Source of the DNA: Owenia fusiformis
Taxonomy: Eukaryota > Annelida > Polychaeta > Sabellida > Oweniidae
DNA length: 64,000 nucleotides
Direction of reading: 5' to 3'
Assembly: GCA_903813345.2 (NCBI GenBank)
Contig: CAIIXF020000006.1
Location: forward strand, 29,331,936 to 29,395,935
Position numbers and translations under genes: made by a program
Notes under the pieces: model-generated
Told to the model about the DNA's origin: nothing
The model's database searches: none
What the model saw: the letters and a program-made list of their open reading frames with translations, nothing else
Part shown: in pieces, positions 31,068-63,227 of the stretch
Layout of the letters: every line of letters starts with the position of its first letter
Position numbering within the stretch: the stretch's first letter is position 1

Positions 31068-31369
31068 TGCCTTACTACAGAATGGTGGTGCCTTGTTAAA
31101 GCTTTGAAGTGCCTTATCAACAAATGATTTCGTCATTTCGAAAAAAAAACGTATAAGTAACAAGTTTGATGAATCTTCTCATCCAACTACAGCTGATCAA
31201 GACAACATTGATACATTTGAACAATTTGCCTTATAAGGACATATCGCTGTCGTACCTGGTCTTTTAAAGATCAAGGGGCAAGAATCTAAGATGACGGATA
31301 ACCTTAATATGTTGGATGCCTCTGACATGCTGGCTGCAGCACTGGAGCAGATGGATGGAATCCTGGCAG
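31068..31369 (+). CDS. PPFIBP: Liprin-beta first coding exon (CDS from 31291)
   Basis: The acceptor TTGTTTCAG ends at 31067. About 220 nt of 5' UTR follow with an in-frame TAA at 31234, then ATG at 31291. Twenty-six full codons include DASDMLAAALEQMDGI, nearly identical to the N-terminus of vertebrate liprin-beta-1 (SDASDMLAAALEQMDGIIAG), and the exon ends in phase 1 at donor G|GTAAGG (31370). Liprin-beta proteins are cytoplasmic scaffolds that pair with liprin-alpha at synaptic active zones and adhesion sites through coiled coils and SAM domains. Those domains are not in this window and must lie to the right. No TATA box is seen near. The motif match is the whole basis of the naming; the extent of the UTR exon is inferred. 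Confidence 0.85.
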
Positions 31370-31781
31370 GTAAGGTGGTTTATTATTCTACAGTAGGGTC
31401 AAGGAAGATTTTGATGTCTATAGTGGAGAAACTAGGGGCCAGTTTCATAAGTCTATTCATATTTTTTTTATTTCCTTCAAATTCAATCAGATTCACTATA
31501 ATCTGAAACAAAATTGTTCTTCCTGAAATGTATTTGTATTCATGAATTTCATGAAATGTTATTAAATAATTTTCTTTTTTGGCAATAAACATCTTTTTAT
31601 ATTGACTCCTGGGAGCTTCTTAGACTTGTCTCCCAATTGACTCCATATATGTATTTTAGTAGATATATCGTCACAACAATAAATTGTTTACATCTTGATG
31701 TTTTCTGTCTCCAATGCTACCTGATGCATATATATTGCCATAACAATGAATTATTGACATCTGTATGTTTTCTGTCACCAG

Positions 31782-31832
31782 GGTTACCTGATACATATAC
31801 CAACACCTGGCAAGGTGATAACTCAAGCACAG
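31782..31832 (+). CDS. PPFIBP: 51-nt phase 1-1 exon following the liprin-beta start
   Basis: The acceptor TTTTCTGTCACCAG ends at 31781 and the donor G|GTAAAT starts at 31833. Joined to the exon at 31291 it reads GLPDTYTNTWQGDNSST and again ends in phase 1. At 51 nt and symmetric, it can be skipped or kept without a frame change. A shorter use of the internal donor CAAG|GTGATA (31815) would make 33 nt, also in frame. It lies only 412 bp after the first exon. I do not recognise the peptide from vertebrate liprin-betas. Confidence 0.6.
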
Positions 31833-33881
31833 GTAAATGCTACAAGCTACAGTTAAGCATGTCCCCCCAAATGCCATGGCTGTTATATTTTATAATTTGA
31901 ATTTTGATCAGTAAAGCAGAAATATATTTCTTATACGTCCTAAGCATACCTTAGTTCAGACAATCTGCCATGTAATCAATTGCAGCTGATATGATTGGCT
32001 CAACATGGTCAAATGTATGCATTGCCTGTACTAAAAGGTAAAGTCTTGTATATGTATAAGTCTCAGGTGCCTATTATATTGGTTGGTGCAAGACTCAAAA
32101 TAGGTTGTATAAAAACTATATTCATTAAAACTTAAATCATCAGTATACTGCACAGCTTTAAAAATTGCTCAAGGTAATACAATCCTTCATTTATTTCCAT
32201 GAGCCAATTGCTAAATTGTCTGTCTGAATTTTTGAAGTTAAGCAGTAAACTGTAATAAGTATATGAAAGCAAATGCTTGAAATTATATAGTAATAAAAAT
32301 TAAGTAAGAAGCATGGCAAAACTGACATTTCAAACACAGGATGCTTGTGCTGTAATTACTAAGATTGATGCTTGTAACATTCACTTTTGGTTATTCATAG
32401 ATATATTTCTGGTTCTCAGTTTTATTTTGGAATGGTAAAAGTCAAAGTGCACGGAGTGTGGGAAGCACCATTGCTAGAAAGTAATGGGGGCACCCAGAAA
32501 TATCATTTGGAAATTTCTTATTTTCAGTTTTAATTTTCAGGATTTGAATTTTGTGATATCTGATTTTGGATTATTTTGTTTTGGGTTTTGATTTTGTGAC
32601 ATATGAATGCAAAAAGATGGCGCTCTAATATGTTTTTTATTTTTGCGTGAGTTGGGGTTTGGATTAAACGCATGGTGCTGTTCTTTCAAAAGGAAGGAGC
32701 TGAAGCAAAAAATAACAAGTTTGAATATATACTTTGTGCATTTTGTGCGAAATATTGCAGTTTTAAGCATTCTTTGAAATAATGAAAAAATCTAGAATAG
32801 CAATAAGCAGACAGTCATAGATCCAGACATATGTGAAATATTGTATTCCACGTAATTTAATCCCAAAACCTCTTTATGAAATATTTTGTAAACTCTGTGA
32901 AACCAACGGATGTTGGTTTTGTGTTATGGAAACATAAAACTCATCCGAGAGATAACATAGCATTTTACCTTGCATTTTATCTCAATTCATGGTAAAATCA
33001 TTACCATACTGGACACCCCAGTAAAAGCACATATATTTTATGATCTTTTATCTAATCCATTTAATGTACCTTTAGTGCGGAATCATCCGTAAATGAAATA
33101 TTTAGGTGGTTATGTTATGATATGCAAGAGTGTTAGAAAAATTTGCAAGAATGTCAGCAAGATATATGTAGTCAACACATCACATTGCGTGGATATGCTT
33201 CAATATTGGGATACTTTCTTGAAATAACTTTCTTAGGAAATGATGTAGAGAAATGCTGATCAGATAAAGATTGACGTTTCTGAGTTCGGGTTAAGTGACC
33301 CTGTTGAACCGTTCAAATAGTAAGCACCTCAAAATGGAGTACTTTTTAGATATAACATGTTTACTTGGGATAATGTAAACGCACTCTGCAGTGATTGGTT
33401 TACTTAAATGTATTGCTTCGGTAAATCTGCTGAAACAGCACTTCAAACACAGGGAGTATTTAAGAGTTTCCGTTTGTATATATCTCAACTGCAAATAGCT
33501 CAATAATACTAATATACCTGAAATGTATTTGACGTATGTGAACTGGTGAATTCTTCAGTAGGAGTAAACATAACCTGCCTGCAAGTTCTACATGCTTTAT
33601 TTAAACACGTCAGGTGATACACATCTTATATGAAATACAAATCTTGAAAAAAACAGGAAAACACCAAGATTTTATTCAGATTTATACCTCATCAGGATAT
33701 TTTCAGATAAAAACTTGTTTACAAATGAAAAATGATGATGTAATTGCTACTCGTATAGAATGCTGTAAATTGGAACTTAACAGTTTCGGGTTGTTTGCGA
33801 ACAGAATGTTTAACATAAAACTTTCGTCCAGGAATTTGGAATAGTTGTAAAATTGGGACTCAACAAGTTAACATATACAAA

Positions 33882-35271
33882 ATGTCTGATTCTGATATTG
33901 AGGAAGTCTATAGAGAGAATAGTGAACTGTATGATGATAATGGCTCTATAAGTGATCTACTTGAAGATGAACCATCAGATAATAGTACGAGGATTAAAGA
34001 CAGCCATCATGACAGCAATGTTATTGAAGGTGAACATGAAGATAGAGGTAATGACATTATAAAGGAGGTGAGATTCTCTGAGATTAATGACTCAATTGTT
34101 GTTCAAGATGAACATATAGAGAATTTAGTAAAGGATATAAGCACTGATGACTCAAGTTTTAGTGATGTATATGCACATCAATATGAAGAACCCAATGATG
34201 GTGACAGCATTAAGGATGAGAGGATTAATGAAAATATAAATGTTATTGAAGAACAAATGGAAATTGGAACAACATGTAGTGAAACCACCAACGTTTATGA
34301 TGTGCTCCTTATGGAGAAAAGCAGTGCAAAAGTTAATGCTACCAATACCAGAAATGATGGTCTGCATCTGAAAACTGAAGAAAACAATGATAAAGGTGCT
34401 TTTGAAAATGACTCAGATACTAAATATGAAGATGTACCTTTGAATAGTGAAGTCATCCCTAAAGCAACATCTTTTGATGATAGTGATAACATTACTTTAG
34501 ACAGTGATGTAGTAAAAACTAACTTAGAAGGTGACATTGAGCATCATGTTACTGGGCCCCAGAAGGATGGTGCTGATAATATTAAGGATGATGAGCATGC
34601 TATTGGTACAAATGAGGATGGTACAGTTGATATTGAAAATAATAATACAGAACCATTTGAAGATTGCCCTCTGGATTATTATACCATTAGTATAAAAGAA
34701 GATAATATCTCTGATGACGCAACAACAGATGAATCCATTGAAGATAGGCCTATAGATTATTCTACTACTAGTGCCCAGAAGGACAATACGTATGTGGCTG
34801 AGATATTTGAATCTCCTGAAGTTGGCAGTCCCAATGATTTGAAGGATAATAAACATGTCCTTGAGGTAAATGATGTAAAGGTTTGTGAAGATAATATTGC
34901 AGGTACAAGCGAGATGAAAATATCTGGTAATGACACCGATAACTTAGAACTACAATATGGCCCTCCAATGAATGACAAAGATGCTACCACAAGAGAGGAC
35001 AATGAAACCACATTAGACAATAACTATACTGGTAAACTAGAACATATAAAGCTGTACAAATCTATGGAAGACTATGCTGCAAGAGTAAATGCAAAGGATA
35101 TATTTGTTGGTGATATTGATGGTATCATGGATGCATCTGACGATGACTCTACAGGAAGTAGTACTGCCACAATAAGCAGCAGTAGTGGCAGTTTAGAAAT
35201 TGACAATTCGGGGATCATTGAACTGCACATTTGGGAAGAAGATCTAGAATCTCTTACTTTGGATTCAACAG
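33882..35271 (+). CDS. Large acidic, disordered exon; alternative first exon or giant cassette of liprin-beta (inferred)
   Basis: The frame is open from ATG 33882 for 463 codons and ends at a strong donor, ACA G|GTGAGT (35272), in phase 1, the same phase as the liprin-beta exons. The frame also stays open upstream to 33819. A possible acceptor, CTTTCGTCCAG (ending 33831), would give a 1440-nt phase 1-1 internal exon of 480 codons. The product is very rich in Asp, Glu, Ser, Asn and Thr, with few hydrophobics and no Pfam-like domain I recognise; it should be disordered. An internal repeat is visible: FEDCPLDYYTISIKEDN and IEDRPIDYSTTSAQKDN. The last part, ELHIWEEDLESLTLDSTG, is more hydrophobic. 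A separate gene whose other exons lie elsewhere is possible. Codon use looks genuine and the frame is far too long for chance in this AT-rich DNA. Confidence 0.7.
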
Positions 35272-35743
35272 GTGAGTGAAAAACAGTTTCATTAATACTC
35301 CTTCCATGAAATGGCTGAACTGAATGAAATGATCATGGACCAGATAACATATTAACAGGTTATTAATAAATACATTTTAACAGATCATCTGGGCAGATGA
35401 TCTGTCACTACATTGAGTAAGTAGGGCATTATTATAAGACTTGACTGTTTTTGAAAACCCGCAAAAAGAAAGTTTATTAGGAATTAATCAAAAGTTAATA
35501 GAGGCTCTTATGTTACATTCTGCCAAGATGTAAAACAAATGAAACCATCAGGGAAAATTATTGAAAAGTATAATCAACATGGACATAGTTGTAAAACTAC
35601 TTCAAACAACATACCATTTTGATAAATACATAAAAATGGATAAGAGCCCATTGCTCTCTGCTTATGAAACTGAGTTTTGGTTCATGTATGGACACCCTGA
35701 TTTGGGGTTACGTAGGCATGAACAACAAACATAAATAATGTAG

Positions 35744-35943
35744 CAGGTTTTGCAGCTTGCTTTTTCCAAGGGGGTTCACTTTTTGAAAAATTCCAGGGAG
35801 GTTCACATTTGACCATTTTGACCCAAAACCACTGAAAAAGTGCTCAGAGGTAAAAATCTGCATGGTTGTGAAAGAATCTTTAGCCAGAGGGTTGCTTGCA
35901 CCCCTTGAACCCCCCCCCCCCTCTTGGCTACAGTCCTGTGGCT
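35744..35943. repeat. Dispersed repeat family B, copy 2
   Basis: It has GGGGGTTCACTTTTTGAAAA, TTCACATTTGACCATTTTGA, CTGCATGGTTGTGAAAGAAT and a C-run followed by TTGGCTACAGTCCTG. The order matches 27866-28071, with a weak left end. Confidence 0.6.
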
Positions 35944-36449
35944 AAATGAGAATAGATGAGCTATGATTCATTGGCTCACCTTGTTGTGAACTTGGAAGCT
36001 ATTTGTTTGATTCCTTACAGATGGTTGTTTTTAGAGTGTTGTTGTCTGTTGTCTGTCTAAGCTAGATGTAATAGCTGGTTGTAACATAAGAAAGAGATAA
36101 CAGATAGGAGCTTTTGTGATAGGTGTTTACCTTAAAGTCTTTGAACTCTTGAGGTTTTCTCTATTGAATGAACTATTGAAATTATTGAAATATAAATATT
36201 GAAAATGAAATACTCCAATGGATGTTATCTCAATTTTTGTGTGTTTTTGAGGATTTTTTTTATTGTTGCGTTATAAATAGCTTGTTTAGATTGTCGGTTA
36301 ATATGTTTTTTTGGTTTTATGTATTCTTTAAGTGCATCTTCTGATTTATTATTCTCAGTAATTAAGTAATGCTAACCTGGACATAAAGTATATTAATAAA
36401 TATTAAGTTTTCAGTTTCAGATGCTTTCACTTTTGCATTATCAAAAACA

Positions 36450-37350
36450 GGCCATAAGAAGTAGATTCTTTGTTTTGCATCCTGGCAAAATCCAAATCAT
36501 GCAAGGGTACAAGGAAAACAAATACAAACTCAAGAAAAAAGATAAACGTGTTTGCTGAGAAATGTATACATTTAATTGGCATAAAAGGGATGATATAGCA
36601 ATTTGCAGTGATTACAAATACATATCTATACATTTTATACAATATATTTAAACATAGCTATTATTCAAGGGTAAAAAATAAGAAAATACACAATGTATGC
36701 CAAAGTAATCAATAACACTGTCAATTTTGACGCACATCAAATTATCCGCCATTTCGTCTGATTCTGATTGAACGAAATGTGATGGTATTAGCTTTCAGAC
36801 CTTTGTGATTGGTATTTGGATGTGTTTGTTTTACGTGTGATTTACTCAAAATCGTGCAAGCAAGGGGACAAACACAAAGAATCTACTTCTTATGGCCTCA
36901 ATTTTACCTGCATTCTACAAGTACTCAAGGACTCATGAGCAAGTTCTTTAATGTAAAGGACGATTCTCGGTTTGGAGAACAGTCTCCTGGGCTAATAATT
37001 TTTTTCATGAAAAATATAGAAATATTACCCAAATTAAACTATGAATATTCAAAAGAGGACATTTAAATCTACAAGATGTAAAAATAACAAATTGGTCTGA
37101 AGCAGGGATAAAGCTCAATTTGACCGATTCAATAAAATACAAGTCTCGATTTGGGGAAAGAAGTTCATAAGTGTACTGCGCTAATATTTTTTTGCGAAAA
37201 ATCTAGAAATATTACCCAAATTAAATTATGACTATTCAAAAGAATACATTCAAATCTATATTATGTAAAAAGTTCAAAGTTGTCCGAAGCAGGGATAATG
37301 CTCATTTAGATTGATGAACTTCGTTCTCCAAACCGAGAATCGTCCTTTAC
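36450..37350. repeat. Two adjacent foldback structures
   Basis: A 23-bp segment at 36450-36472 (GGCCATAAGAAGTAGATTCT...) recurs inverted at 36875-36897. A 28-bp segment at 36953-36980 recurs as a perfect inverted copy at 37323-37350 (key part GGACGATTCTCGGTTTGG). Between the second pair, 36995-37120 and 37190-37310 are direct copies sharing AGAAATATTACCCAAATTAA and GAAGCAGGGATAA. No coding frame. Confidence 0.7.
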
Positions 37351-39186
37351 TTTGTTCATTTACTATTCCATTTTTGTATATAATGTACATCAAGTTTTCT
37401 GTCAATTCTTTCTCTGCTTGGTCTATTTTCCCAACAGAAGTTGTGGCAGTATCACCCATAGTAAAAATGTCACAATTGTCCTGCTTTGAAATGTGATATA
37501 ATATAGTAAAAAGAGTATAACAAGAAACAATGTGAAGAGGCATGTAATTAGCGCTCCAAAGTGTATACAGTTTTCAGAAAATCGGGTACTTCACTCTAAT
37601 TTTGATACAAAAAGATTCAATAAGTATGACGAGGAAGTAATTTTAGGCATGGGAGATTTTGTTCAAGTTTTGCATTAACTCACCTGTATTGACAGGTAAT
37701 AATCATGTTCTTAGAACATATCCTGTTTTTCCAGTTGATCACATTTATTAACGTCTACTAGGATTTGTTCTGATCTACTAGGAATTTCTTTATTGACATA
37801 TTATTTATGTTGATGAAATATCATTTTGTCTGGTTGAGAAAAATGATATTTATGTTAGAAACAAGTCAAATTCTTTACTTCAGAGAATATTTTTAATTTA
37901 TTGAGACTTGTTTTGACTTGTTTCTGATATATTAACCAGAGAGATGAACTTACATAGAGATATTTATGTTTTTAGCTCTATCTTCTGTTAATAGATGTCA
38001 TCTTATAATGGTGGATATGCTTCTAGCTCTGTTTACTTGCAATAGATGTCTCTCTATGAACAGTGAGGGGGCATTATCAGTTGGTTGTATTGTGTGTATA
38101 AATGCTCAGTCATTTAGGATCTAATGTAGAAATGTAGTATAATTACATAACTAGACCCAATCTTGTTGGTTAAAAGTTATGACAATTGACAGCGTAAGAA
38201 ATCATGTCTTTTAGGAGGAATGAACATTGCAGAGAAAAAAGCCATGCATTCTTGTGCATAAGACAATTCTCAGGTGCCGGACACGACAAGTCTGGATATT
38301 ATGCCGTATGGATAAAGAATAGCTTTGGATATTTTGTTATGAAATAGATCTGGATAGACTTGGATAGTTCAATATAGAATGGATACCTATGAATAGATTG
38401 GTATCAGCTGATTGGGATACTTCGAGAAAGATTGGGATAGTTCTCATAAGGCTGGGATTGTGGATACTCTGGAATAGAGTAGGATAGAACTGGATAGATT
38501 GGGATAATTGTCATAGCTTTAAATAATTCTGAATATTAAAAGTAACATATATTTAGATGATAGATTTTGGTAGTGCTCTAAAGATAGCTATGCAGGGAAA
38601 TAGATGTGGTTGAAAGATTAGAATGGTCTTGGGATAAGATAGTTTGACAATGTTATGATTCCTGTAAGCATCTGGTTGTCTTTTGTTTATCATTAATGGC
38701 AGTTTAATGACTTAAATAGATAGCAATTTGATTGGAAGTATCACCTGTTGTTTCATTTCATTTCTGATGTTCACAATTTTACTTTCTGGTTAAATGTAAA
38801 GCTGCTTGATGGAAGAACTTGATTTTGCTTAATTCTGAAAAAATTTAGAAGAAATTAATTTCCAAAAATCCTTATATATACCAAAATTAAAAAGGATAAC
38901 TCGTTCCATCAATAGACATTGTTATAAACCTATTCTTCAAATATTAGAGCTTGAAAAAATATATGACTCCCAAGTTTGCTTTGTGGACTACAACTGTCTC
39001 AACATGAGTTTGTCAGAATTTAGGCCCATTATAGAATTTGCCTAGCATGTATGCATTTGCAGAGAGAAAGGGACATAGGGGTTATGTACCCCTTCCAGTA
39101 GTTTGATTTTGCCTCTTTAAAAGGGAGGTTCATCTACAATTTCTAAGCCCTGACACTCAGGGCAGGGTTGGAGATAACAGAAAAGG

Positions 39187-39392
39187 ATGCATTACTCAGC
39201 CAGGATTTGCCAAGGGGGTTCACTATTTGGAAAATTCCAGGGGGGTTCACTTTTGACAATTTTGGTCCAAAAATGCCCAAATGCACTTACAAAGTGCTCG
39301 GAATGGTGAAAAACTGCATGATTTTGAAAGAATTTTTGACTAGGGGGGGGGGGTTGCTCGAACCTATCGAACCCCCCTGGCTACAGGCCTGT
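39187..39392. repeat. Dispersed repeat family B, copy 3
   Basis: CAGCCAGGATTTGCCAAGGG at the left and CCCTGGCTACAGGCCTG at the right enclose the same GGGGGGTTCAC, TTTGACAATTTTGG and CTGCATGATTTTGAAAGAAT blocks as 27866-28071. It directly abuts the MITE at 39401. Confidence 0.7.
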
Positions 39393-39400
39393 CTATATAC

Positions 39401-39861
39401 TAGAGGTGTGCACTGTTGGTAAATCACTTAATCGATCAACAAAATATTTTAATCGATTAATCATCGATTAATCATTCTAATATAAATGATAGAGATCTGA
39501 CATAATTTCCTTACAATTTTCTAATTCTTTAGTAGTAGGCGATAATTCACTCGTTTGATTTGATTGCATACCTCTATTGAATAAAATATATCAATAAGAT
39601 GTATCAGAAAACACAAAAACAACAAAGGTAAGCGTCTAGCTTAGGGTAATAATTAGCTTGTTTGGCAGTTTGAGTTTTAAGCTTGGCATGTCAACCTGAC
39701 AAATTAGGTCTCAATCAGTCAGTGACATCATGTAAGCTTACTCACGGCAGGATATTGAAGATTATCTTTTTGAGAATCAGTTAATTGAGTATTAAGAATC
39801 TTAATCGATTAAACTTGTGTCGATCAATTAATCGATGATCGATTAAAAATTCACACCTCTA
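39401..39861. mobile_element. hAT-type MITE, 461 bp, with perfect 8-bp TSD
   Basis: TAGAGGTGTG at the left end is mirrored by CACACCTCTA at the right. CTATATAC flanks both sides (39393-39400 and 39862-39869), a perfect 8-bp duplication as made by hAT transposases. Subterminal ATCGATTAATC repeats occur in both orientations near each end. There is no transposase frame, so it would need a transposase from elsewhere. The perfect TSD suggests a fairly recent insertion. Confidence 0.85.
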
Positions 39862-40269
39862 CTATATACTCAGTCATATATAACACCTTGATGGATCAAG
39901 GTAAACTCATGGTAGGATTGTAGATTAACAAAGAAGGATGCAACACAACTACTGACCCTGTCTTATCATATGTTATCTATTCTCTGTAGAGGTCAACTGA
40001 AAGAAGGGATGCTATACTAACACACCTATCACCTGTGTTTAAATTTCCATGGTGATCACATAAAATCATCTCAGTTTCTCTAAATTTTGAATGAAGAATT
40101 TAATTTTCTTGCATTTCCATACAATTTAGAGTATCGACTACAAGAATGTTTAATTTAATCCTTGCTAATTCCACTCCTTTTCTCTTTATTTTGCAATCCA
40201 AATCATGACCAAAGTGAGAAATTTCTCATAGCTATCTCTCACACCAGGTATCTGGTCTTCAAGGAATTC

Positions 40270-41100
40270 TGGTCCATCTAATCCTAATCTAGGAGATCAC
40301 TTTCACTATTTGTATACAAGCCACTGGTAGGTAGTAATACATAAGTACATGTGTGGCAACCAAGAATAAACAATTTACAACCAAGAATAAAGTTGATTTG
40401 GACATTAATAACAGAACCCTTGATGTAATTGTTAAAGATTTGGATTAGAAAATCATTAAGGGATATCAGTTTCAGTGTTTATATACAAGTCCAGTAATAG
40501 GTAGTTGCAAGGCAGTTTAAACTCAACAACCAAGCATCAAGATAAGAACTGAAAAGCACTATTGCAAGAGTAGATCTGTATGTGCAATTGTTAAAAACCT
40601 GGATTATATAATCCTTATATCTGCTGGCAGATAACCTTCATTGCTTGTACACAAGGAACTTCAAGAGGAGTATGTAGTACTTGAATAGAGTAAATCATAG
40701 ATTGATAAACATAACACAGGATTCAGGACCAATCACTCTGGACATATACTCCAACAAAACTAGAATATAACACAGCAAAGTCATTGTTGGTTCCAAAGCT
40801 TCTTCTGTTTTTGGAAGAGAGCAGGTTCTTAGATGCGTTACATTTAAGATTGATTGTGATAAATCAGAATGGAACAGCGTAATTAAAAAATCTGGATTAT
40901 GTGATCATTATATCTTGCAACTAGATAATGATAACATTTATATGCAAGGAACATGGAGTAGTATAACTGGAGGTAACATTACTTTAAGACTGAGGAACAG
41001 TTGATTTGGACATAAACTACAATCAAACTAGAACAAGAACACAACAAATTATTACCAACATCTTGATTAGATAATCCCAGATCTTAGCACTACTGTAAAA
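40270..41100 (+). repeat. Decayed tandem array, period about 165-170 bp
   Basis: Degenerate copies carry GGATTA-x-x-x-AATCATTA, then TTTATATACAAG, then AGGTAGTA, then a block about accompanied by ACAACCAAG and TTGATTTGGACAT. The GGATTA/CTGATTA mark lies near 40275, 40437, 40607, 40889 and 41060, so spacing is about 162-170 bp with one longer step. Similarity is low and was judged by eye. Confidence 0.4.
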
Positions 41101-42871
41101 GTGGTTATTTTCCTGAAATTAAATTTTTTAGTTTTTACTAAAATTCAAGTTGGCAGGTATGAATTTTACCTAGATCATTAAACAAGCCTAGCATTTGATG
41201 TACAAACATTAATTTGCTGAAATCTTAGTTTACTGAATGAAAAAGGCAATATAAATCTGATAAAAGTTATTTCTTACAGTATATTATATTCATGATTTAC
41301 TATAGTTCATCACTCTAGTAGGATAGAGTTACAAGAATTGTGAATAACCTAGAGCAACAAGTCTTGGAACAAAATAGAAAGAAGTGAAAGAATTCACAAA
41401 CAGTGCAAATAGCATTGAAGGAATTACTTGGATTAGAGAGATTTACCTATCAAACATCTGAAGAATATATTTTCACATGTTTTTAGTTTCAGGAAACAGA
41501 AATTGAGATACATAGATATGTAGAAGAAATTTATTAGGAAACAAAAAGGTAGAATCAAGAAGTTAAAAATAAAACAATAAAACGCACCAATTTAGCTTCT
41601 AATTTTCAAATCAGCTCAATCTGATAAATATAAAGGGATTGTTATATTCAGTTTTTTTGACACAGATGGGCGTTTTGCACTGAATTTTAAATATTTATAT
41701 ATCATTTCTTCTCATAACTTCAATGATATCAGATATTAGAGTTTTGTGCCGAGGACTAGAATTAAAACAGATCCAGTCTTTAAATAATCTTTCAATTATC
41801 CTATTTGCATCCAGGTTGATTGATTGATTGAATACTTGTTAGAGTTATGGTTCATTTGTGACGAATTGAGTAAGAGCATTTCTAGGGGAGTCTCATATTC
41901 CATATCAGATGTAATCTAATTTACATTTATATAAGATCATTAGGTAAACTCTGCTTCACACATAGCAGTATTGTTGGTTCTACAGCCTCTAGTATCTTTT
42001 GACCTGCACGCATTGAGGCAATTTGGCTATTGAATTTTGTTGAAATTTTGGAGGATTAAAATATTGGGATTTGTGATGATTAAGGAATTTAATTAAGTAA
42101 ATTGATTAGATTCAACAATGGTTTGATTTTGATTCTGTAAAAAAGCTTTGTCTTCTTTTAGTGCTTTAATATATTAGGCTCTGTTGTATGTTTTCTGTGT
42201 TCTGTAGCTAGTTAGGAAATGTTTTGGCGTACTCGCTTACCACATAGGCCTAGCCCCCTTTTTTGGCAATCGTACCCCCCCCTGACTGAAAGCTGGCTAC
42301 GCCCCTGTAATACCTAGGTAATTCCAGATGAGGTTTTGGTGTAATCATTATTCTACATGGAATATATGATTAGATAAATGTTGATGATTTAATGGATCTG
42401 ATCTGATATAAGGAGGGTAGACAATGGTAGACAAATATATGGTCTTTGTACAGAATGATTGGTTCTTGCTCTTGGGAGTTCAATTGATAGAGGTGTGAAT
42501 TATATACAGGAAAACATGCATATGGAAACACCATGTGGGGCAATTATCAAGGGAGTGTTTCGATTAGAATATTTGATATAGATGAAAATAGGCACAATAC
42601 ACAGTGGGCCAAAAAATGTGCAAAAATGTTTCTGAGAATGATGCTAATTATCTGGATTTGTCTGCAAAGGATATTGTTATACTGCCAGCTGATTAGTTTC
42701 AAGGTAACATTTTAGTATAAAATACCTGTTGAATATCAATTTATTTTAGACAATGAGAGCACTTGTATTGAAATTTAATTACAATGTTTAGATATACATG
42801 TAACAGGTTTTACAGGACTTATAATCCATTAGTTAGTACAGTAAAATATGCACACAGTTAAGTTTTTTATG

Positions 42872-43022
42872 TCACCACTTGATCACCACTTGACCACAAC
42901 AAGTGGTGACATACTATTAAAATAGTGTCCAACTTTTTTTGTGGATAGTGTTTAGTGGTTGATGTTCAGTGTCTGTAACATGCAAAAGGGAGGTGGTGAC
43001 ATTTTGCATGTTAATGCCTTCT
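42872..43022 (+). repeat. Dispersed repeat family A, copy 4
   Basis: TGTCACCACTTGATCACC and its inverted partner AAGTGGTGACATA open the copy. TTTTTTTGTGGATAGTGTTT, GTCTGTAACATGC and GGTGGTGACATTTTGCATGT follow, as in the other copies. Confidence 0.7.
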
Positions 43023-45088
43023 TTTGATATGCGTGTCATTGCTAGATTTGGGATTGAGAAATATTTTGTACCAAACTGAGACTAAGTTCTTGGGTGAACC
43101 CTAAAGTCCCTAATTTTACATACCTGAAACAGCCCAGTGAAGAAAACTTATCTAATCAGTCATAATATAGGAATTTCCAATTTCCAATTATATTATTCTA
43201 AAGAAAATTACATCAGTTAACTAAACATAACATTGCTTATGTTATTCTAGGGCTATTTATCTATGCTGTGTTTACAAGTGTTGTGAAATTGTTATTATTG
43301 GGAGGGTATACATACTTTCATGATCAAATCATTGATCAAAAGCTTCCGAAGAATTTTAAGATAGATTCATCTTGGTTTAGCAAATCTTGGTTTGTCTCCT
43401 CTCAATGGTATAACCCCTTGCTGTGTTCATCCTTTTCGTGTTCATTTTCTGGATAAAAATATTCAAACTCGACAAAAATTATGAGGGGTATGGGCTCATT
43501 GATAGATATTTGAGTGATTTTTGGGTTGTTAAGTATAGATAGATATAAAAGCCCATGGTAAATTTCAATGTGAAAGGTGTACTGGGCAGAAAATGATTGT
43601 AATTTGCTCTTTTAACCTCACTTGTGGAGGTAGGGTAGGTTTAGTTTTTTCAAATGTTGTTCAAATATTTAAGTAAATTGCAAGATGTGACTGTGGTTTG
43701 CTGATGAATACCAGACCTATCATCTAATCAACAAATCAGCTTTAAGGTAGTTCCACACCCTCACAAAAAATAAGAAAAAGTTCAGAAATATCATTTCAAT
43801 TCTAATCAGTTGAAACATTTTGATTTTTCATTCAACAATAATGTGTAAATATCCAGATTGAAAGAATAATTACACATTTCATTAATAATTGCTAATAATA
43901 ATCTAAATAATTGTCATAGTGTGGACATACCTTAAAGTTTCTAATTCTACAATACCATGTAGTGTCATGTGCTGAATTGATTAAAAATGTAAGGCTGGTC
44001 ATAAAAAGCATAGAAATGCCTAGATAATTAATATGCTTAATTCTGGAAGGAATGACAAAGAATTCAAATTAAAGAGAGAATTAGATCTAGCAAGTAGTTT
44101 AACAAAACATTGTTTCAATTTTAGAATATTTCTGGCTAATGTCATTCCTTTTCATGTCTATTTTCTAAAAATCCCCAAAGTGCACATTTTATTTCAGGAA
44201 AACTAAAGATTTTTACAATAATGTATTATTTTTCTATAAGAATGGTTACCTTTCTTGAACATTTTTTACCTATTTTTGCACTTTGAATCCATTATAACTT
44301 CACCAATTTATAACATATCGTGAACCTTTTAGGAGATATTGTATTTGAGATTGTACAGAATAGATTGGTAGGTAAATTGTACATGTTGCTTGTAATTTTA
44401 TCACCCCCATAGATCTGATTCTACCTTTAAGTTAAAAAAAATCTCAGAGGAAAAAGTGAATCTGTTTCATCTGCTTTGAATTGTAATTTTGTTTTGTGGG
44501 ATTATCCACATCTTGATCCATCAAGGTATTTTTAGTAATGAAGGCAAAATAATACAAGTTCAAGAATGTAATCTCATTGTGAGAGAGAAAGAGATAAAAT
44601 CACACGTATAGCTGCTTAAAATTATAATTTTTTTATTTTATGGGTTATATATATACACATGTACATTGATTCTCATCATTTGGATATATTGATACTCGTT
44701 TTGCAATTCAAAAGATGAAGCAATAAGTTCAATTAATTGTATATGAGGTAATATGAAAATACATGCAGAGGCATCGATGCATTTCTTGGAATACTGTAGT
44801 TTCATATTTTAATGCAAATGTAAACAGGTATCAAAGTTTCATTCCAGTGATCTCCACGGGATTTTCTCTCAAGTGGGTGCAAAATTCTCATTTTCACAAT
44901 TAAGATCAAATTAAGATCAAAATATGCCTATTTTTCATGATTTTTCTCATTTTCAAGTGGGTGCAGATGAATTTTCAGGTGGGTGCAAGCCTATTTTTAA
45001 AATCTCAGATGGGTGCTGCGCGCACTTGCTTTAATGCTGAAGAGATCACTGCATTATATTACCATATCAGATCAGTTTCAGTATTTTT

Positions 45089-45864
45089 ATCCCATCGAAC
45101 GAAGTTCGGAAGGATATAGGGAACGCCTCCGTCCGTCCGTCCGTACGTCCGTCCGTCCGTCCGTCCGGGCAATTACTCAAATACCGTTGGCCCGATTTTA
45201 TTCATATTTTGTACACATATACCCTATGGGGGTAGAAGTTCTGCTCGAAAGCCGATTTTCAAAATGGCCGCTCATTTAAAAATGGCGGCCATTTTAGTGC
45301 CGATTTTACAGTAATTTAGGTGCAATATGTAAAACTGTAATAGCAATATGTTTTAAATGTAAAAAAAATTATATAGGACATTAATAAAGCTAGAAATGTA
45401 GATATTAAAAAAGCACATGGCAGCCATCTTGAAAAATGGCGGCCTTTACTCGTTATTTTACGATTTTTGCTGTAACTCGAAAAGTAATGGAGCGATTTTG
45501 TTCATATTTGGTACGTGAATACGTATAAGCATGGTACACTGTCTAATGACACTTTTGGTAGAAGGCGGCCATTTTTCAAAATGGCCGCCATTTTAACGTA
45601 TTTTACTATAACTCGAAAAGTAGTGGAGTGATTTTGTTCATATTTGGTATGTGAATACCATAAGCATGGCACACTGTCTAATGAGACTTTTGGTAGAAGG
45701 CGGCCATTTTTCAAAATGGCCACCATTTTAACGTATTTTACTATAACTCGAAAAGTAGTGGAGCGATTTTGTTCATATTTGGTATGTGAATATTATAAGC
45801 ATGGCACACTGTCTAATGACACTTTTGGTAGAAGGTGCCCCTTTTGAAAAATGTTCGATGGGAT
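45089..45864. mobile_element. Inverted-repeat element with CGTCC run and ~135-bp tandem repeats
   Basis: ATCCCATCGAAC (45089-45100) is mirrored by GTTCGATGGGAT (45853-45864). Just inside the left end is a (CGTC)n tract at about 45130-45168. The right two-thirds is a tandem array in which AACTCGAAAAGTA starts at 45474, 45610 and 45745 (period 135-136). Each unit carries AAGGCGGCCATTTTTCAAAA and AATGGC palindromes. Open frames on both strands come from the array. No TSD was resolved. Confidence 0.7.
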
Positions 45865-46194
45865 TCGCTACGCTTTGGCGTTGCCGTTGTTCTGGTTATA
45901 TTTGACAATAGTAAAAATCTGTTGAAAGTTCATTTTTAACTCACACACTTATTTGTTCATATTTGATTTTATGTCCATATAATTATGGCATCATATTCAC
46001 AGACGTTGGTACCAAGGCTTATGTACATCTCCCTCTTTCAAGGATGTTGGACTGGAAATGAAAAACAGTTGTTAAAGTGTTATCTCTGCAATAGTCAGTG
46101 ATTAGTATCTGAGATTGACCAATTGGTATTTAATGCTTTATATTATATTATTGAGCTACATGTATATTAATTGTTGAAAATCTGTATTTCACTT

Positions 46195-46262
46195 TGATTG
46201 AATTTTGGATATTTTTTAATGACGTAAATCATGATTATTTCTACTCGAATCTAGTCTATTCT
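46195..46262 (-). repeat. Dispersed repeat family D, partial copy
   Basis: AATGACGTAAATCATGATTA and TTTCTACTCGAATCTAGTCT match the end of the family D copy at 63045-63196. The rest of the unit is missing. Confidence 0.5.
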
Positions 46263-46425
46263 GATTGTGAAAGTGGGTTTAAGACACAAACGTGACCTGC
46301 ATGAGATACTACTAATACTGACCAGTACCAATGAAAAATCACAAAGAGTAGCATAGAATCACAAATTAGTATGTATATTGCGAATCAGCTTGACATGAAC
46401 ATGACCACTATATGTAATACCTACC

Positions 46426-48309
46426 TTATTCTCTGTATTTCACAGTGAAGAGATTCCCTGTGTTGTCCCCCACCAGGAGTTTGCCATCATGGATTGCAAC
46501 AGCAAATGGTCCACATAAACCATCCTTCTTTGTGAGAACATATTTGATAAAGTCTCCCTCGGGGCTAAGTAGATGAATGCGATCATTGCCCCAGTCTGCC
46601 ACAAATATGTAGTCACTTGCATCAGTGCATAATCCACGAGGACCAGACAGCTGTTGATCTCCATTTTCTTCCTCACCATAAGAGAACACCTCCTTTCCTT
46701 GCTTGTCAAATCCCTTTATGCAGTTGGCTCCTAAGTCAGTCACCAGGATCACACCCTTGCTGTTGCATGTTACATATAGAGGGTCTTTGAATGTACCTGG
46801 TGGATATTGATAAACTGTATCACCCGTTGCAGGATCAATATGGTAAACATTACTGTTGCCCCTATCACAGACTAGTAGGTGTCCAGATGATGTGTTCATT
46901 GCTATGCCACATAGTTTCGACAAACCTTTACATACTATATCTCTCTTGTGGGTGCCATCTGGAAGGTGGACTCTGATAGTGTTTGACTGATCTGTAAAGG
47001 CAAGATTGTTATCAGGCATCATTGTTACATTATAGAATTTATTCTCTGTATCTTTTATTAATTTGAAGTTTCTGTCATATATTTTGGTTGAACCTCCCCA
47101 CATTCTATCTGTTGTTATGTAATCACCAGCTTGTGTAACTGTAATGTCATTTATATAATGTTTTTGTAGTTTTCTGTGCTCTTCAGAAGGTTCACACAGG
47201 GCCTCCAGCTCATCTTTTGCAGGTATCTTTTCTATTAGTACTCTTCCAAACTGCACCCCATCTTCATTGACTTTACTATCAGTGAATTTGATATCAATTC
47301 TGCAGTCAACGTCCAACTTTGGATGTTTAGACCACTCCTCTGATTTCTTACTGGTCTGTTCTCCCAGGCCTGCTATTTCTACAGGATGGCCATGCTCTAC
47401 CATGGTGCAGTATTTGTTGACTTGACCCTCTGTAATGGCTTTCCAGAGCTCCAAGTGACCAATATGGGACATAACTTGCTTAACATTAGATTCCTTTTCT
47501 TTCTGAACCAGTTCTATAAAGGACTTGCACTTGACACGGATTGCTTGCATCAAAACATTCATATCATTGTTAACAGCAGCAATGACATTTTCAGCATTTT
47601 TCTCCAGTTCACATTTGTAAGCCTGTGTTTCTTCAATAGCTTTCTCATACATGTCTGCAAGTCCTTTACCCTGTGTGATAACTGCACCAATAGGCTTCAT
47701 GTTTTTGACAGCTGTTTCTTTTATGTCCTCACAAGTATGACCTGCGTGATCTATTGGGTAGCACAGGTGACATAGCACTCTTTTGTCAACTTTACAGAAG
47801 AGCTCTATTGGTTTTGTTGGATGTTTCTCACAGAACACATTGCGTTCTTTTATGGACTGAAGTGCTGTCTTGAGGTCATTAGCTTTATCCCCAGTAATGT
47901 CAACTACTTTATGACCTTGAGAGAATGAGTCATGAAACAGTAGACAAGTAGCACACAGCCTTTTGTTGCAATCAAGGCATTGGGTGGTAGCTGGGGTATG
48001 CTTCTCTTGGTTATCACGACATGTGTTACATTCAGGTTCTTGGGTCTGGTTACTGTCCTTATAGGCATCAACCAAGAATGAAATTGTAGGGCTCGTCTTG
48101 AAATCTCCCACCCCTTGTGGTACAATACACTCATGTCGGCATTCTGGACAATTGAAACATTCTCCTTGAAGCTTACTTTTCTCAACCAAACTGTGTAGAC
48201 ACTTCAGGCAATAAACATGCATACACGGCAGGATCCTTGGGTCAGTTAATATATCTTGGCACAATCCACAAATGAGGCCTGCCTTGAAACGATCTCCAGC
48301 CGATGCCAT
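46426..48309 (-). CDS. TRIM-type protein: RING, two B-boxes, coiled coil, NHL-like repeats
   Basis: A single open exon of 627 residues from the ATG at 48309; the frame also has an ATG 11 codons earlier (48342), but MASAGDRF is the more usual start just before the RING. A C3HC4 RING uses Cys/His at about 14, 17, 29, 31, 34, 37, 54 and 57. B-box 1 (from about 94, CNTC...CLDC...CATC) and B-box 2 (about 157-196, CEKH...CKVD...CHLC...H) follow. A coiled coil spans about 205-330, then NHL-like propeller strands to the end (GLCTDASDYIFVADWGNDRI is the clearest unit). The domain order fits TRIM2/3/56/71-like E3 ubiquitin ligases, a family often expanded and intronless in marine invertebrates. Substrate unknown. 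It is nested antisense inside the presumed liprin-beta intron. All zinc ligands look present, so it should be functional. Confidence 0.9.
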   Translation of the reverse strand: MASAGDRFKAGLICGLCQDILTDPRILPCMHVYCLKCLHSLVEKSKLQGECFNCPECRHECIVPQGVGDFKTSPTISFLVDAYKDSNQTQEPECNTCRDNQEKHTPATTQCLDCNKRLCATCLLFHDSFSQGHKVVDITGDKANDLKTALQSIKERNVFCEKHPTKPIELFCKVDKRVLCHLCYPIDHAGHTCEDIKETAVKNMKPIGAVITQGKGLADMYEKAIEETQAYKCELEKNAENVIAAVNNDMNVLMQAIRVKCKSFIELVQKEKESNVKQVMSHIGHLELWKAITEGQVNKYCTMVEHGHPVEIAGLGEQTSKKSEEWSKHPKLDVDCRIDIKFTDSKVNEDGVQFGRVLIEKIPAKDELEALCEPSEEHRKLQKHYINDITVTQAGDYITTDRMWGGSTKIYDRNFKLIKDTENKFYNVTMMPDNNLAFTDQSNTIRVHLPDGTHKRDIVCKGLSKLCGIAMNTSSGHLLVCDRGNSNVYHIDPATGDTVYQYPPGTFKDPLYVTCNSKGVILVTDLGANCIKGFDKQGKEVFSYGEEENGDQQLSGPRGLCTDASDYIFVADWGNDRIHLLSPEGDFIKYVLTKKDGLCGPFAVAIHDGKLLVGDNTGNLFTVKYRE

Positions 48310-49301
48310 TTTGTATATCCATACAATGTACTTGAAAATCAACTTCCTGATTTACATTTAGTTTGTACTTTCAGCAATATTTTATTGTCCTATTGTATGT
48401 CCTTCGGTCAATGATTAGATTTTTTACCCAATGTTCTTGTCGGAATCAGTAATTTCAGTTTATTGAAGACAATTTATTCGAGAGCCATGTACTTTGAAAT
48501 AACACCCAACTTCCCTTTACAAGTTACTTTTATTATAATCAGTTCTCAGAACTCATATTCATAGATTGTATGTTATCGGGTTATAATAACCTTTTAACTA
48601 AAAGAAGAACATAGCTGTAGATCAAGTGTTATTTATTGATTATTTGAACTAGTATTAAAAAGTTGAATGTGCACTGTTATGCTCAAACTCTAATTGAAAA
48701 CTCAAAGGGCAACATTTCAAAAGTAAAAATAAATCTCTTATATTTATGAAATGATTATTTGAACAAGTATTTGATTGTTAAAAGTTGAATGTTTGCTGTT
48801 ATCCTTTAACTCTCACTGAAATGAGAATAGACAAAGGGCAAAATTCAGAAGAAGTGAGTAGGTCCCACAATTCTTTCATGTTCTATCGTATTCGGGGATT
48901 CCCCATTATATGAAGTCCAATCAAATTGCAGGATATGATCACATGAACAATCATGAGCACATGCATTCAGTGCTGCGCATGCATAAAGTAAAATTTGAAA
49001 TCGTGGAAATATTTCAGTTTAACATCATTTCAACATCATCATTTCAAAACTATGGTAATACTATTGAAGTTACTCGATCCAAACTTGTAGAGAATACTCT
49101 TAAAACAACAGTGAACAATGTGAGATCCATTTCAATGGCAAATGAGGCCTGTTTATAAAATTGGTCATTGAACGTGCCGAATACTACAGGTCATCTTTGG
49201 GAAATCTCCCACCCTGGGCAAAATTTCAAAAAATTGAAAACCTAATATTAATGAAGAAACTAATAAATGTTATATCAAGTGTACGATCAGATGATATTTA
49301 T

Positions 49302-49440
49302 AGGATATCCTATGATTTTGAGGAATATCATTTTTATCTACGAGGTGATATTGATATCTGCACGAGAGAGCGAAGCGAACGAGTGCATATATCAATATCA
49401 CCGAGTAGATTAAAATGATATTCTGAAAAAAATCATAGGA
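49302..49440. repeat. Near-perfect long hairpin, arms ~65 bp
   Basis: ATCCTATGATTTT at 49307 and AAAATCATAGGAT ending at 49441 bracket a foldback: GATATTGATATCTGCACGAG on the left pairs with CTCG...TGCATATATCAATATC on the right. The apex is a short GAGCGAAGCGAACGAG. The transcript of either strand would form a long hairpin. Confidence 0.75.
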
Positions 49441-49446
49441 TGTTCT

Positions 49447-49720
49447 TATTATCCTACACTTACAAGTAGTGTACTAAATGTATACTATCATTGCAAAATG
49501 AATTCCATGCCAAATAGAGTCAATTTGGCGGGAAATCAACAAGCGGAGTATATCGTCACAATATCCTCCGCATATTGGGTTTTCCGGAGTATATCGTCAC
49601 GATATCCTCCGCCCGGAGTATATCGTTACGATATCCTCCGGATATTCATTTTGCCAATAAATATCAAATTTATTTTTTAATGTTATTATACATTTAGTAG
49701 ACTAAGTGTAGGATAATTTA
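49447..49720. mobile_element. MITE-like element carrying three 27-bp palindromes
   Basis: ATTATCCTACACTTA with TACTAAATGTATA just inside is mirrored by TATACATTTAGTA and TAAGTGTAGGATAAT, giving ~32-bp inverted ends. Inside, three 27-bp near-perfect palindromes lie at 49544-49570, 49585-49611 and 49614-49640. Each has the form CGGAGTATATCGT, one base, then ACGATATCCTCCG (first copy with one change). No protein is encoded. No TSD was resolved. Confidence 0.7.
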
Positions 49721-52014
49721 CGTATATGCAATAGAGATATGCCAAGTTGGTGGTTAGTTTTACAAAGTGTCATGTTATCTACTAGACATAAGTGTTTTGA
49801 TATCCATGTGTAAGATTAGTGTCAGATTAGTAGATGAAGATTAACTCATTTAGGAGATTATCCCCCATTATGTAATATATATGCCCTTGAAGATACCTGG
49901 TACATGCCAGATTAACCATTCTAATTATCATAGAGAAAACTCTAAATCACATAATGAGATCAACATTCTGTTATATCTCTATGAGTACAAGCATTTGATA
50001 AAGAAGAACTCGATAAATTCTCTAGCTTCAAGGCTTTGTGGCGGGACCCGACTATACACCTCACTACTTCTGGGCCATTGACCATACATATATTTTCTGG
50101 GGGTGTCTGCATTTGATTGAGTGACTAGGTCAGCATTTAAACATTAAGGAAAAATGATAAATTAGATTGATTCAAGCAATTTCAGAGGTTTAAAAATTAC
50201 AAAAAGTTCTGATTTTAACAAGGTGTTTTTAAAATCAAAATCTACATATTTACTGATTTCAAAGATTAAAGAATGTCATAAATGAGGCAAAATAGTTGGG
50301 AGCAAATTAAAGTAAGGCCCCAAGCCTCAGACTATAAACCTAGCAATCACCTTTCTTATATTTTATGGGATTTATCTAGTGGTCAGTTAGTTTCAGCAAT
50401 AAATCATTAGTTCAAAGGTTGCATTGATTAATCTATAGCCTGACTACTTACCTGTAAGCAAACTAAACAGGTTGGTAAGTGTAATACTTGTTGATGTGGT
50501 CAGATAAAATTGTATTTTACATATGCATTTTACATATGCATAGGTGTAGCCAGGAGGGGTGCGAATGTGCGATTGACCCCCCCCCCTCCCCATAACCAAT
50601 AATTGAAGTTTCTGGCTCAATTTTAAAGGAATTTGCCTCAATTTTTGTAAAATTCAAATCAAATATTCAATTTTGGGGGTTTCTTATGCCACGATTTTAC
50701 CTCCCTGACTGAAAATCAGATCGCGATCGCACCCCCCCCCAATTCAAATCTATTGGACGTTATATTTTTTCCTAAAATTCCTTCAAGGTTTTTATCTAAG
50801 CTCCTTTTAAATATTTTGGATTTAGAGAAAGTCTGACTGCTAATTGAAAACTTCAATTTTAAATAAATTATCTCTACATGTGTACTTGTAATTGTATGCA
50901 AACATTATGTTTTGACCATTACAGTTGACAGTTTAAAGTGACATTTATAGTATGTCTACATCACAACCAAATCAAGTCATGATAGAGAATGGTTCTCAAG
51001 GATTTTATGATCATCCTCAAGAAAATACAGTTTAGTGCGATTGTTTAGTTTGTGCAGACGAGAATTAGAAAAAATACAAAGGAGAAATACTTGAAGAGTT
51101 AGATTTCACAAGTTTTGATCTGATTTAGAAAAAATCAAATGAAGGCATGATATTCATCATTAAGAAAGTACAGTGGGAAAAACCAAGGAGGATTATGAAA
51201 AAGAAAGTATTAAATATGAATTAACTTTGTGATTACTTTAAGCATATATTATTTATGAGATGCAAAAATATGATTATAACAAGACTATATGAAATTGAAA
51301 TGAAAGTAAAAAGAGAAAGTCATTACATGGAGTGTTAAAGAATTTTGATTGGATTAAGAAAAAGAAAAAGATTCATTTACACCATATGTTTTGTAAAGAA
51401 GAACTGAAGCACCTGTCATTATGATTAGGAAAAACATAACAGAAGAATGTGAATGCATTTTGTGAAAAGTTTCAAAAAATGAAAGATTATATGTTTTATC
51501 ACTTTAAACTTGAACTCAATTGCTCATACTAGCTATTGATTGTAAAATATTTTGAGAAATTTTATAATGTTATCCTAAGCACAATATAGTAAGCATCCCT
51601 CCACTTACTGTGCACTTACTATCATAGCATAGCATATTTGTATGAAGCTCTCTTTTAAGCAGCAAAATGAAACTATTGGATATACTATGTACTGGGACAA
51701 TATAATTAAGCACTGAAGCAGTAAGTTAATTTCAGCTTCTCGATTCTGTGGAAAAACTATTCACAAAATTCGGTCCTGTTATAGAGGTTCATTAAGGTAG
51801 GGCCTGGTAACCATAGCAACTAGTATCAGGGTGGATCTGAGGAAGATCACTAGAAGCAAGTTTCTGTTCAATCTTGTTCTGGTAGATACCCGTAGATAGA
51901 AGTACTAGTAATTAAAATTAGATACTTTCTCTATTTCTTTAGGAATATTATGAGCTGACAAATTTTCACAGCTGTCTAGGTTAACTCAGTCGTGTTTTAT
52001 CAATTTGAGGTACA

Positions 52015-52155
52015 CAGGCCCGTAGCCAGGATTTGCCAAGGGGGGTTCACTTTTTGAAAATTTTTGAATATTTCCACTTTTTACAATTTTGGTCCAAAAA
52101 TGGCCAGGAGGGGAACCTATCGAACCCCCCCCCCCCCCCCCTAGCAACGGGCCTG
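52015..52155. mobile_element. Dispersed repeat family B, copy 4, with possible 5-bp TSD
   Basis: CAGGCCCGTAGCCAGG at the left mirrors CTAGCAACGGGCCTG at the right, and GTACA flanks both sides. The internal GGGGGGTTCACTTTTTGAAA and C-run match the other copies. It is shorter than they are, with an internal deletion. Confidence 0.7.
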
Positions 52156-53234
52156 GTACAGATAATGAAATTCATGGAATTGTCAGCGTTAGGTACGGTA
52201 CCCTAGTAATTTGATGACGCGTTAGAAGATGAAGCACTCTTTTAAAAAGCAAAATTAGACTAAGAAAGGGTAGTATTAGGCTTTTGTCTCTATTCCAGTG
52301 TCTCCAAGTTGTATTCTAGAGAGAGAATATGAATTGGAGGGGGGTTAAAACAGAGGCTTAATGCAATATTATGTACATCTCCAGTGGGCACCTGCTCTTA
52401 GGCTCTTACTATAAAACTGATTAGCTCATAAAACAAAATAATAATACAAACAACCTACTCCAGGCTTCAGAAGTGAATTAATGGGAATTATTCCACTGCC
52501 AATAAAAACGATTGACTGTCAGGAATTGCATCGTAGGTGTTCAACCAATGATGATTCAGTATTGAATTTAGGAGGTTTTGACAGGTGTGAACAGCACAGC
52601 AGGTGATGGGACTGTCATTGTTTTATATGTCAATTCTTAAATGAGGAATCGTGCAACTAACATCATATAACTCTGATGTAATGGTAACAATGAAATCTCG
52701 AGGATGTCTATGATTGAATAAAACACTATAAAAGATGAATCTGATATGATAGACTCAACAGGAAATTAATTACGTTTATATGGATAATTATATGTTTGAT
52801 AGACTCAAGTGATCACAGGATACTGACAATTGAGAATAAATGTAATTCAGAATAATTACAATTGCATTTATGACATTTGTAAAACACATGTTCATGAAAC
52901 AAAAGAAAAACGACAAAATGGATGCAGGACAATATAGACTAATAGCACAAAAGTTGATTTTTGGACACCTGGCATATGTTTATTGATGGAGTAGATATCA
53001 TATGCGAAATCTAAAAACCAAACAGGATTATTCCCGAGGGACATTCCTGTTTATAAAACATATAAAATATACCTTTGATGTTACCAAGGATTATCTGTAT
53101 TACACTTAGTATTGTCTGTTATACACCAGTTGGTAACTGTAATACGCATGTACTGTACATGTATCTTGGATCAACATTATGTGATACACCTATAATTAAC
53201 TACAAAGATCTACCCATACATAGTATCCTGTGCT

Positions 53235-53565
53235 GATAATGAAAAACTCTCATGATCATCTATAAAATACCAGGATCATCTATAAGTATACTGTCATATC
53301 TGAAATACTAGGATTTTTTGTAGAATATCAAAATTATCTGTAATATACCAGGATCATCAGTTATATACCACAATTTTCTGTAATACAACCAGAATAATCT
53401 GCAGTATACCAGGATCATCTGTAGTATACCAGAATCATCTGTAATATACAAGGATCATCTGTAACATATACAAGGATCATCTGTAATATTCCAGGATCAT
53501 CTGTAATACACCAGGAACTTCTCTCATATAAGGATTTTGCTTAGCATTCCTGGATCATATGTAAT
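53235..53565 (+). repeat. Degenerate ~22-bp tandem array
   Basis: Units like CCAGGATCATCTGTAATATA recur about a dozen times with many changes (for example near 53340, 53400, 53425, 53450, 53480 and 53500). No coding content. Confidence 0.7.
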
Positions 53566-54003
53566 TGACCAACAATTATCTGTAACCATTTTTCTGATCA
53601 TTGATATTATACCCGTGACAATCATCTGTGAATTCTAAGATGTAGTTACTAACTGGGACCAAGTAAAAAGACACTCCAAATAATGATATACTTGTACTTG
53701 TGATATCTCTGTGATAGTATGATGTGATGATCACTATACATAGATGAAGTGAGTATATCATGAGTATAGATACAATTGATATTCCCAGGATGATATTTTA
53801 TTATTTAATACATCATGACTGTCTACCAGGAAGAAACAGTTGAGTTCATTAATCACACAACACTGGAAATATAGCAATTAAGATTAGATTGTGATTCTCA
53901 GCTTTTTATGTGATTACACAAAACTTACTTTGATTACACAAATTACTATGTAATTACACAAATCGTTATGTGGTAATGAGTAATGTGGCTCAATATTTCT
54001 TGG

Positions 54004-54011
54004 TATAAAAG
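54004..54011 (+). promoter_or_regulatory. TATA-like box before the second liprin-beta first exon
   Basis: TATAAAAG lies 29 bp upstream of the ATG at 54033, the usual TATA-to-start spacing, so transcription would begin at or next to the ATG. This is a good match in position and sequence, but AT-rich DNA gives chance hits, and such a short leader would be unusual. Confidence 0.35.
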
Positions 54012-54032
54012 AGAATGACATCATAAACGAAA

Positions 54033-54183
54033 ATGACATCACCACTTGGATTAAAATCGAGAAAATTTCTAAAAGCGCAAAAGGAATGGATAGCGCCCTC
54101 TAGTAGCCAAGATGAAGTTATCGGAAGTGAAGTTTTATCCCGAGCCCTGACGCAACTAGATAACATTATAGCACATATGAGAG
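54033..54183 (+). CDS. PPFIBP: Alternative first coding exon of liprin-beta (paralogous N-terminus)
   Basis: ATG at 54033 is preceded by an in-frame TAA at 54024 with no acceptor between, so this is a first exon. Fifty full codons end in phase 1 at the strong donor GAG|GTAAGA (54184). The last part, SEVLSRALTQLDNIIA, lines up without gaps with SDMLAAALEQMDGILA of the exon at 31291: S, L, A, L, Q, D, I and A are identical and the others mostly conservative. The first 30 residues (MTSPLGLKSRKFLKAQKEWI then a Ser-rich part) are basic and unlike the other exon. Both exons can splice to the same downstream acceptor. The product would be a liprin-beta with a different, longer N-terminus made from a promoter 23 kb downstream. 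The assignment is inference from motif, phase and order; a separate gene is possible. Confidence 0.65.
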
Positions 54184-63196: not shown

Positions 63197-63227
63197 GAAT
63201 TATGGTTCATTATCATTTTTGTCAGTT

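Follow-up and report, generated by a model that had tools for sequence, protein, structure and literature searches.

A paralogous candidate alternative first coding exon in the liprin-beta gene of Owenia fusiformis

Results

We analysed a 64,000-nucleotide stretch of the genome of the annelid Owenia fusiformis (C6:29331936-29395935, hereafter the window), which holds the start of a liprin-beta gene. Its canonical first coding exon (E1a) is followed by intron 1, and within this intron, on the same strand and between E1a and exon 2, lies a second, E1a-like open frame (E1b), which we consider a candidate alternative first coding exon. Positions are those of the window, continued beyond its end, unless the contig is named. 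Genome searches covered the 498-Mb O. fusiformis assembly (525 contigs), and donors were scored in bits with a donor matrix. The features concerned are as follows.

31291..31369, + strand: E1a, canonical first coding exon of liprin-beta, phase 1 out (from its translation and the match to 8iw0_A)
31370..64000, running past the window to exon 2, + strand: intron 1 of liprin-beta (from collinear exon matches)
54004..54010, + strand: TATAAAA, a possible TATA box 29 bases before the E1b ATG (weak evidence, as the sequence is AT-rich)
54005..54041, + strand: 18-bp tandem duplication across the E1b start codon, whose upstream copy yields a three-codon open reading frame (ORF)
54033..54183, + strand: E1b, paralogous candidate alternative first coding exon, phase 1 out, at one place in the assembly
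54033..54125, + strand: E1b leader, 31 residues, net +4 in the first 21
54126..54173, + strand: variant docking motif SEVLSRALTQLDNIIA, score 41, predicted helix
54184..54189, + strand: E1b splice donor GTAAGA (GAG/GTAAGA), 10.46 bits, phase 1
64187-64422 (C6:29396122-29396357), + strand: exon 2, starting 187 bases beyond the window end

E1a, with the translation MTDNLNMLDASDMLAAALEQMDGILA, carries the conserved liprin-beta N-terminal helix motif SDMLAAALEQMDGI(I/L)A, here in the form SDMLAAALEQMDGILA at 31321-31368. It matched PDB entry 8iw0_A, a liprin-beta-1/KANK1 chimera, with E=3.2e-5 and was near-exact over liprin-beta-1 residues 2-21; its own locus was the only match listed for it in the assembly. 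The weakly conserved exon 2 was located by a two-sequence profile, with which it ranked first among 868 open frames (E=0.038). It follows the acceptor TTTTCAG, is entered in phase 1 and left in phase 0, and has a donor of 10.35 bits. Its start reads (G)SKPSDLQNGYSDTLSS, and the first residues, GSKPSDLQNGYSD, parallel GSKALEYSNG, which we take to be the human liprin-beta counterpart at this point, with the same Gly-Ser-Lys beginning. The match of E1a to residues 2-21 and this presumed shared opening of exon 2 make the N-terminus similar to that of PPFIBP1/PPFIBP2.

Human liprin-beta probes located further exons on the same strand and in collinear order. Those at 85733 and 108466 are coiled-coil exons, and those at 127543 and 128197 are SAM exons with SAM_1 matches. 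The first SAM domain (SAM1) had its best match in liprin-beta-1 (3tad_C, 3.6e-26), that to liprin-alpha-2 being far weaker (3.1e-12). Judged from these sequences, the locus is liprin-beta, of the beta and not the alpha type, with E1a as its conserved first coding exon.

The translation of E1b is MTSPLGLKSRKFLKAQKEWIAPSSSQDEVIGSEVLSRALTQLDNIIAHMR. The initial annotation, made from the letters of this DNA, described both exons as starting with an ATG behind an in-frame stop and as ending in phase 1 at strong donors, and this held in full. The stops lie at 31234 for E1a (18 codons upstream of the ATG) and at 54024 for E1b (2 codons upstream), and the E1a donor, CAG/GTAAGG, scored 12.94 bits in phase 1, next to the 10.46 bits of E1b. 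A donor as strong as that of E1b occurs at 7 sites in 32.8 kb. Only two of the 11 intron 1 donors of at least 9.5 bits close a phase-1, ATG-containing frame that stays open for over 30 codons: E1b and a frame at 33882-35271 described below. A single downstream acceptor fits both exons, as had been supposed. The acceptor at C6:29396122 (window 64187) takes phase 1, so that the phase match concerns a real exon, and E1b joins exon 2 in frame. The basic leader attributed to E1b is likewise present.

AlphaFold2, run on E1b alone as a single sequence with no alignment, gave helices at residues 7-19 (low to moderate confidence) and 25-49, with a mean predicted local distance difference test score (pLDDT) of 73.4 overall, 88 for residues 31-40 and 90 for residues 41-50. 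This prediction supports a helical E1b peptide and bears on helicity only. Pfam gave no family for E1a or E1b, and the human N-terminus likewise had none above cut-off. In a DNA search that skips very common words, E1b and its 601-bp surroundings occur at one place in the assembly, which disfavours a transposon or repeat origin. Just upstream of E1b, 53906-53972 holds about 3.4 copies of a 20-bp unit containing GATTACACAA. These units could hold homeodomain-type sites of a promoter.

We compared the two exons. The 16-residue motifs are identical at 8 of 16 positions, and 13 of the 16 pairs score above zero in BLOSUM62. When E1a was slid along intron 1 without gaps (BLOSUM62), the best score in the whole intron was 41, at E1b, and the runner-up reached 27. 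Among simulated introns, 41 was reached by 1 of 1000 order-1 Markov sequences and by none of 1000 order-3 sequences (Gumbel P ~0.0015), and none of the 2000 combined this score with an equally strong phase-1 donor at most 5 codons away. In a test using a profile 16 columns wide, built from three canonical motifs, the motif score alone was reached in 0 of 600 simulations, and over 134 kb on both strands E1a and E1b were the sole sites. The scan with full-length E1a is the fairer test, because the 16-column window was picked after the match had been seen. A chance match of E1b to E1a is ruled out by these intron 1 scores and profile simulations, and the ancient duplication of the first exon proposed in the initial annotation gains from them, as from the frame compatibility with exon 2.

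The divergence pattern points to an old event. Of the eight identical residues, three share their codon; for one serine, E1a uses TCT where E1b uses AGT. Across the 16 codons, the two motifs agree at the first position in 7, at the second in 12 and at the third in 6. pS was 0.63, near saturation in appearance over ~12 synonymous sites, and pN was 0.43. Three changes are non-conservative (motif positions 6, 9 and 13), and all three lie opposite the hydrophobic face, which was defined from the human-type motif; equally extreme arrangements make up 6 of the 560 placements. We infer that E1b is an old duplicate of E1a that has since been kept by selection, because a neutral copy with such synonymous divergence should have lost its frame, donor, and motif.

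The motif concerned has a structural counterpart. In PDB entry 8iw0, the KANK1 coiled coil is fused to residues 1-24 of liprin-beta-1; entry 8iw5 covers liprin-beta-1 residues ~42-89. The liprin-beta1 N-terminus is reported to bind KANK proteins (PMC9145010, PMC8602034), via the first part of the coiled coil in the case of KANK1 (PMC4995097). In human cells, the links of KANK1 to liprin-beta1 and talin are reported to position cortical microtubule complexes at focal adhesions, and proper clustering of these complexes near adhesions is reported when KANK1 is bound to talin1 as well as to liprin-beta1 (PMC4995097). In pancreatic beta cells, liprin-beta1 has been proposed to connect the secretory scaffold with KANK1 (PMC12803835). 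The O. fusiformis assembly contains a KANK gene. Its KN motif lies at C1:17167853 (49.4 bits), and the same locus also encodes, in the same orientation, a coiled coil that shares 69% identity with the one in 8iw0 (match to 8iw0, 7.6e-13). Both segments of the 8iw0 complex thus have counterparts here, namely E1a, whose isoform is by its match the sequence counterpart of the docking peptide and would be expected to bind KANK, and the KANK coiled coil.

The product of E1b is probably a variant of this docking helix together with a basic leader. The variant peptide is expected to bind KANK with altered strength, because the hydrophobic face is retained, and for E1b modified KANK docking is more likely than loss of docking. 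The leader may add contacts, with membrane or with a partner. The initial annotation had the motif swapped for a variant with a basic leader. As to the motif this was overstated, as the hydrophobic positions are unchanged or bear conservative substitutions; the leader stands, and is the larger change.

Discussion

The features of the locus are best explained if the one liprin-beta gene found has E1b as an alternative first coding exon, derived from an old duplication of E1a and kept by selection, and we regard this as probable. A putative promoter upstream of 54033 would then drive an mRNA in which 54183 is spliced to exon 2 at C6:29396122. The resulting protein would start with the basic leader and SEVLSRALTQLDNIIA instead of SDMLAAALEQMDGILA, followed by the shared N-terminal domain, coiled coil, and SAM domains. 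The choice of promoter could tune the docking of liprin-beta to KANK, and hence to talin and focal adhesions. Such tuning is the likely function because 8iw0 joins liprin-beta-1 residues 1-24 to the KANK1 coiled coil.

Several observations weigh against this explanation. A mini-ORF, ATG ACA TCA TAA (54015-54026), stops 6 bases before the E1b ATG, and its own ATG also has A at -3; the TATAAAA at 54004, if used, sets the mRNA start at or beside the E1b ATG. In a PDB sequence search, the E1b isoform had no match up to E=10, 8iw0 included, a difference from E1a. The exon ends had been described as aligned; this is true of the motifs, but E1b has three extra residues (HMR) ahead of its donor. The test on non-conservative changes rests on three positions. 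The codon preference of E1b, measured with a codon table trained mainly on G protein-coupled receptors, lies at about the 94th percentile and is equalled by 5.6% of 1835 overlapping intronic open frames, which is not significant alone. A second liprin-beta gene as the source of E1b was not found by the genome search with SAM1, which returned itself as the single match. This search is no proof of a single liprin-beta gene, because liprin-alpha was not returned either, so that a diverged second gene could escape detection.

E1b might instead be an internal exon, a cassette or mutually exclusive exon placed after E1a, so that one protein would carry two helices or splicing would choose between them. 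AG sites compatible with phase 1 and with an open frame to the E1b donor do exist at 54076, 54094, 54112 and 54118. Their upstream sequences are 19-56% pyrimidine, each with an intervening AG, whereas the eight acceptors assigned to the liprin-beta gene have 69-81% pyrimidine and no intervening AG. A looser filter applied to 53600-54033 gave one acceptor-like site, 53718, which brings stops when joined to E1a and could possibly serve a non-coding leader exon, and the open frame of E1b is headed by an ATG. We therefore hold an internal exon to be improbable. An own promoter is the simpler reading and fits best, because the candidate acceptors before E1b are poor. If that promoter were lost, E1b would be a relic, a duplicated exon that is now unused. 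The awkward start, with its upstream mini-ORF and the 18-bp slippage duplication, as well as the modest codon score, would suit such a history; yet frame, donor, and motif are intact while the synonymous positions are near saturation, and we consider disuse improbable.

It is also conceivable that E1b opens another gene nested in intron 1, its likeness to E1a being convergent or incidental. Nesting has a precedent in this very intron, which already houses an antisense TRIM-NHL gene at 46426-48351. The similarity to E1a combined with the correct phase speaks against this idea, and no other match was listed for E1b in the assembly. Among the 27 acceptor-like sites in 54224-64186, none was followed by a phase-1 frame that stays open up to a donor scoring 8 bits or more, a scan of internal exons that left stop-ended terminal exons and weaker sites outside; no nested rival exon was seen, because none of the 27 passed this filter. 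A nested gene is accordingly very unlikely in our estimate, and an alternative first exon of liprin-beta remains the preferred explanation of E1b.

To our knowledge, vertebrate liprin-beta genes have no second motif-bearing first exon. Among open-licence papers, a duplicated docking exon in liprin-beta was not found in print in titles or abstract openings. Alternative liprin-beta N-termini as such are already known, because a short transcript of human PPFIBP1, NM_001198915.2, begins past the docking region, with a start codon reported 57 bp downstream of c.403 (PMC9388382). It is said there to have the second highest mean expression across tissues (PMC9388382). As far as that description goes, it resembles the present case in being an alternative N-terminus, from which residues 1-24 would be missing; unlike E1b, it drops the KANK-docking region with no paralogous replacement. 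Alternative first exons in general, as reported for CD36, RBFOX1 and BAI1, are alike in that promoter choice alters the 5' end of one gene, whereas E1b is a diverged paralogue of the canonical exon in which the binding motif is kept.

If two versions of the docking helix do stand under separate promoters, the liprin-beta-KANK link would be a regulated, evolvable switch, and E1b would be a natural variant that shows which docking residues may change. The locus also illustrates that single-isoform annotation can miss the N-termini of scaffold proteins.

Other features of the locus

Two further open frames are candidates for alternative starts.

33882..35271, + strand: acidic open frame of 463 codons, candidate first exon, donor CAG/GTGAGT, phase 1, 13.61 bits
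C6:29408408-29409454, beyond the window: E1c candidate, a lysine/serine-rich frame of 349 codons in intron 2, donor GAG/GTCAGT, 8.76 bits, phase 0

The donor of the acidic frame is the strongest in intron 1 and lies two codons ahead of the frame's stop. The frame may be a further first exon or a single-exon gene, the latter being allowed by an AATAAA at 35365, beyond its end. It gave no Pfam match up to E=0.01, and the genome search returned one match, itself; its codon-preference score was -0.6 over the 463 codons. A docking motif was not found in it. The sites at 34839 (score 27), 34932 and 35106 (23 each) align mostly before the motif, matching the first half of E1a, and lie ~130 bases or more before the acidic-frame donor. 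We read these weak matches as shared Asp/Asn-rich composition.

E1c is basic and lacks the docking motif. Its donor is moderate and in phase 0, as exon 3 requires, so a short isoform lacking the KANK-docking region might begin with it; E1c is a nearer parallel to the human short transcript than E1b is. The gene may have a set of alternative starts rather than a pair. An array of four first coding exons, E1a and E1b with different KANK-docking helices and the acidic frame and E1c with none, is a tentative proposal that we consider doubtful. If it is true, promoter choice would control both the presence and the tightness of the coupling between the liprin/ELKS cortical platform and KANK, talin, and adhesions, and the duplicated docking helix would give graded affinity.

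Elsewhere in the window, repetitive stretches at 2114-2768 (+ strand) and 3837-4711, with DNLQMVL units among the repeats, are open in several frames; these open frames are no evidence of genes. The TRIM-type gene inside liprin-beta intron 1 (46426-48351, - strand) is one open frame encoding RING, B-box, and NHL repeats. A Rhodopsin-family receptor gene, also a single open frame, lies at 12800-13906 on the - strand.

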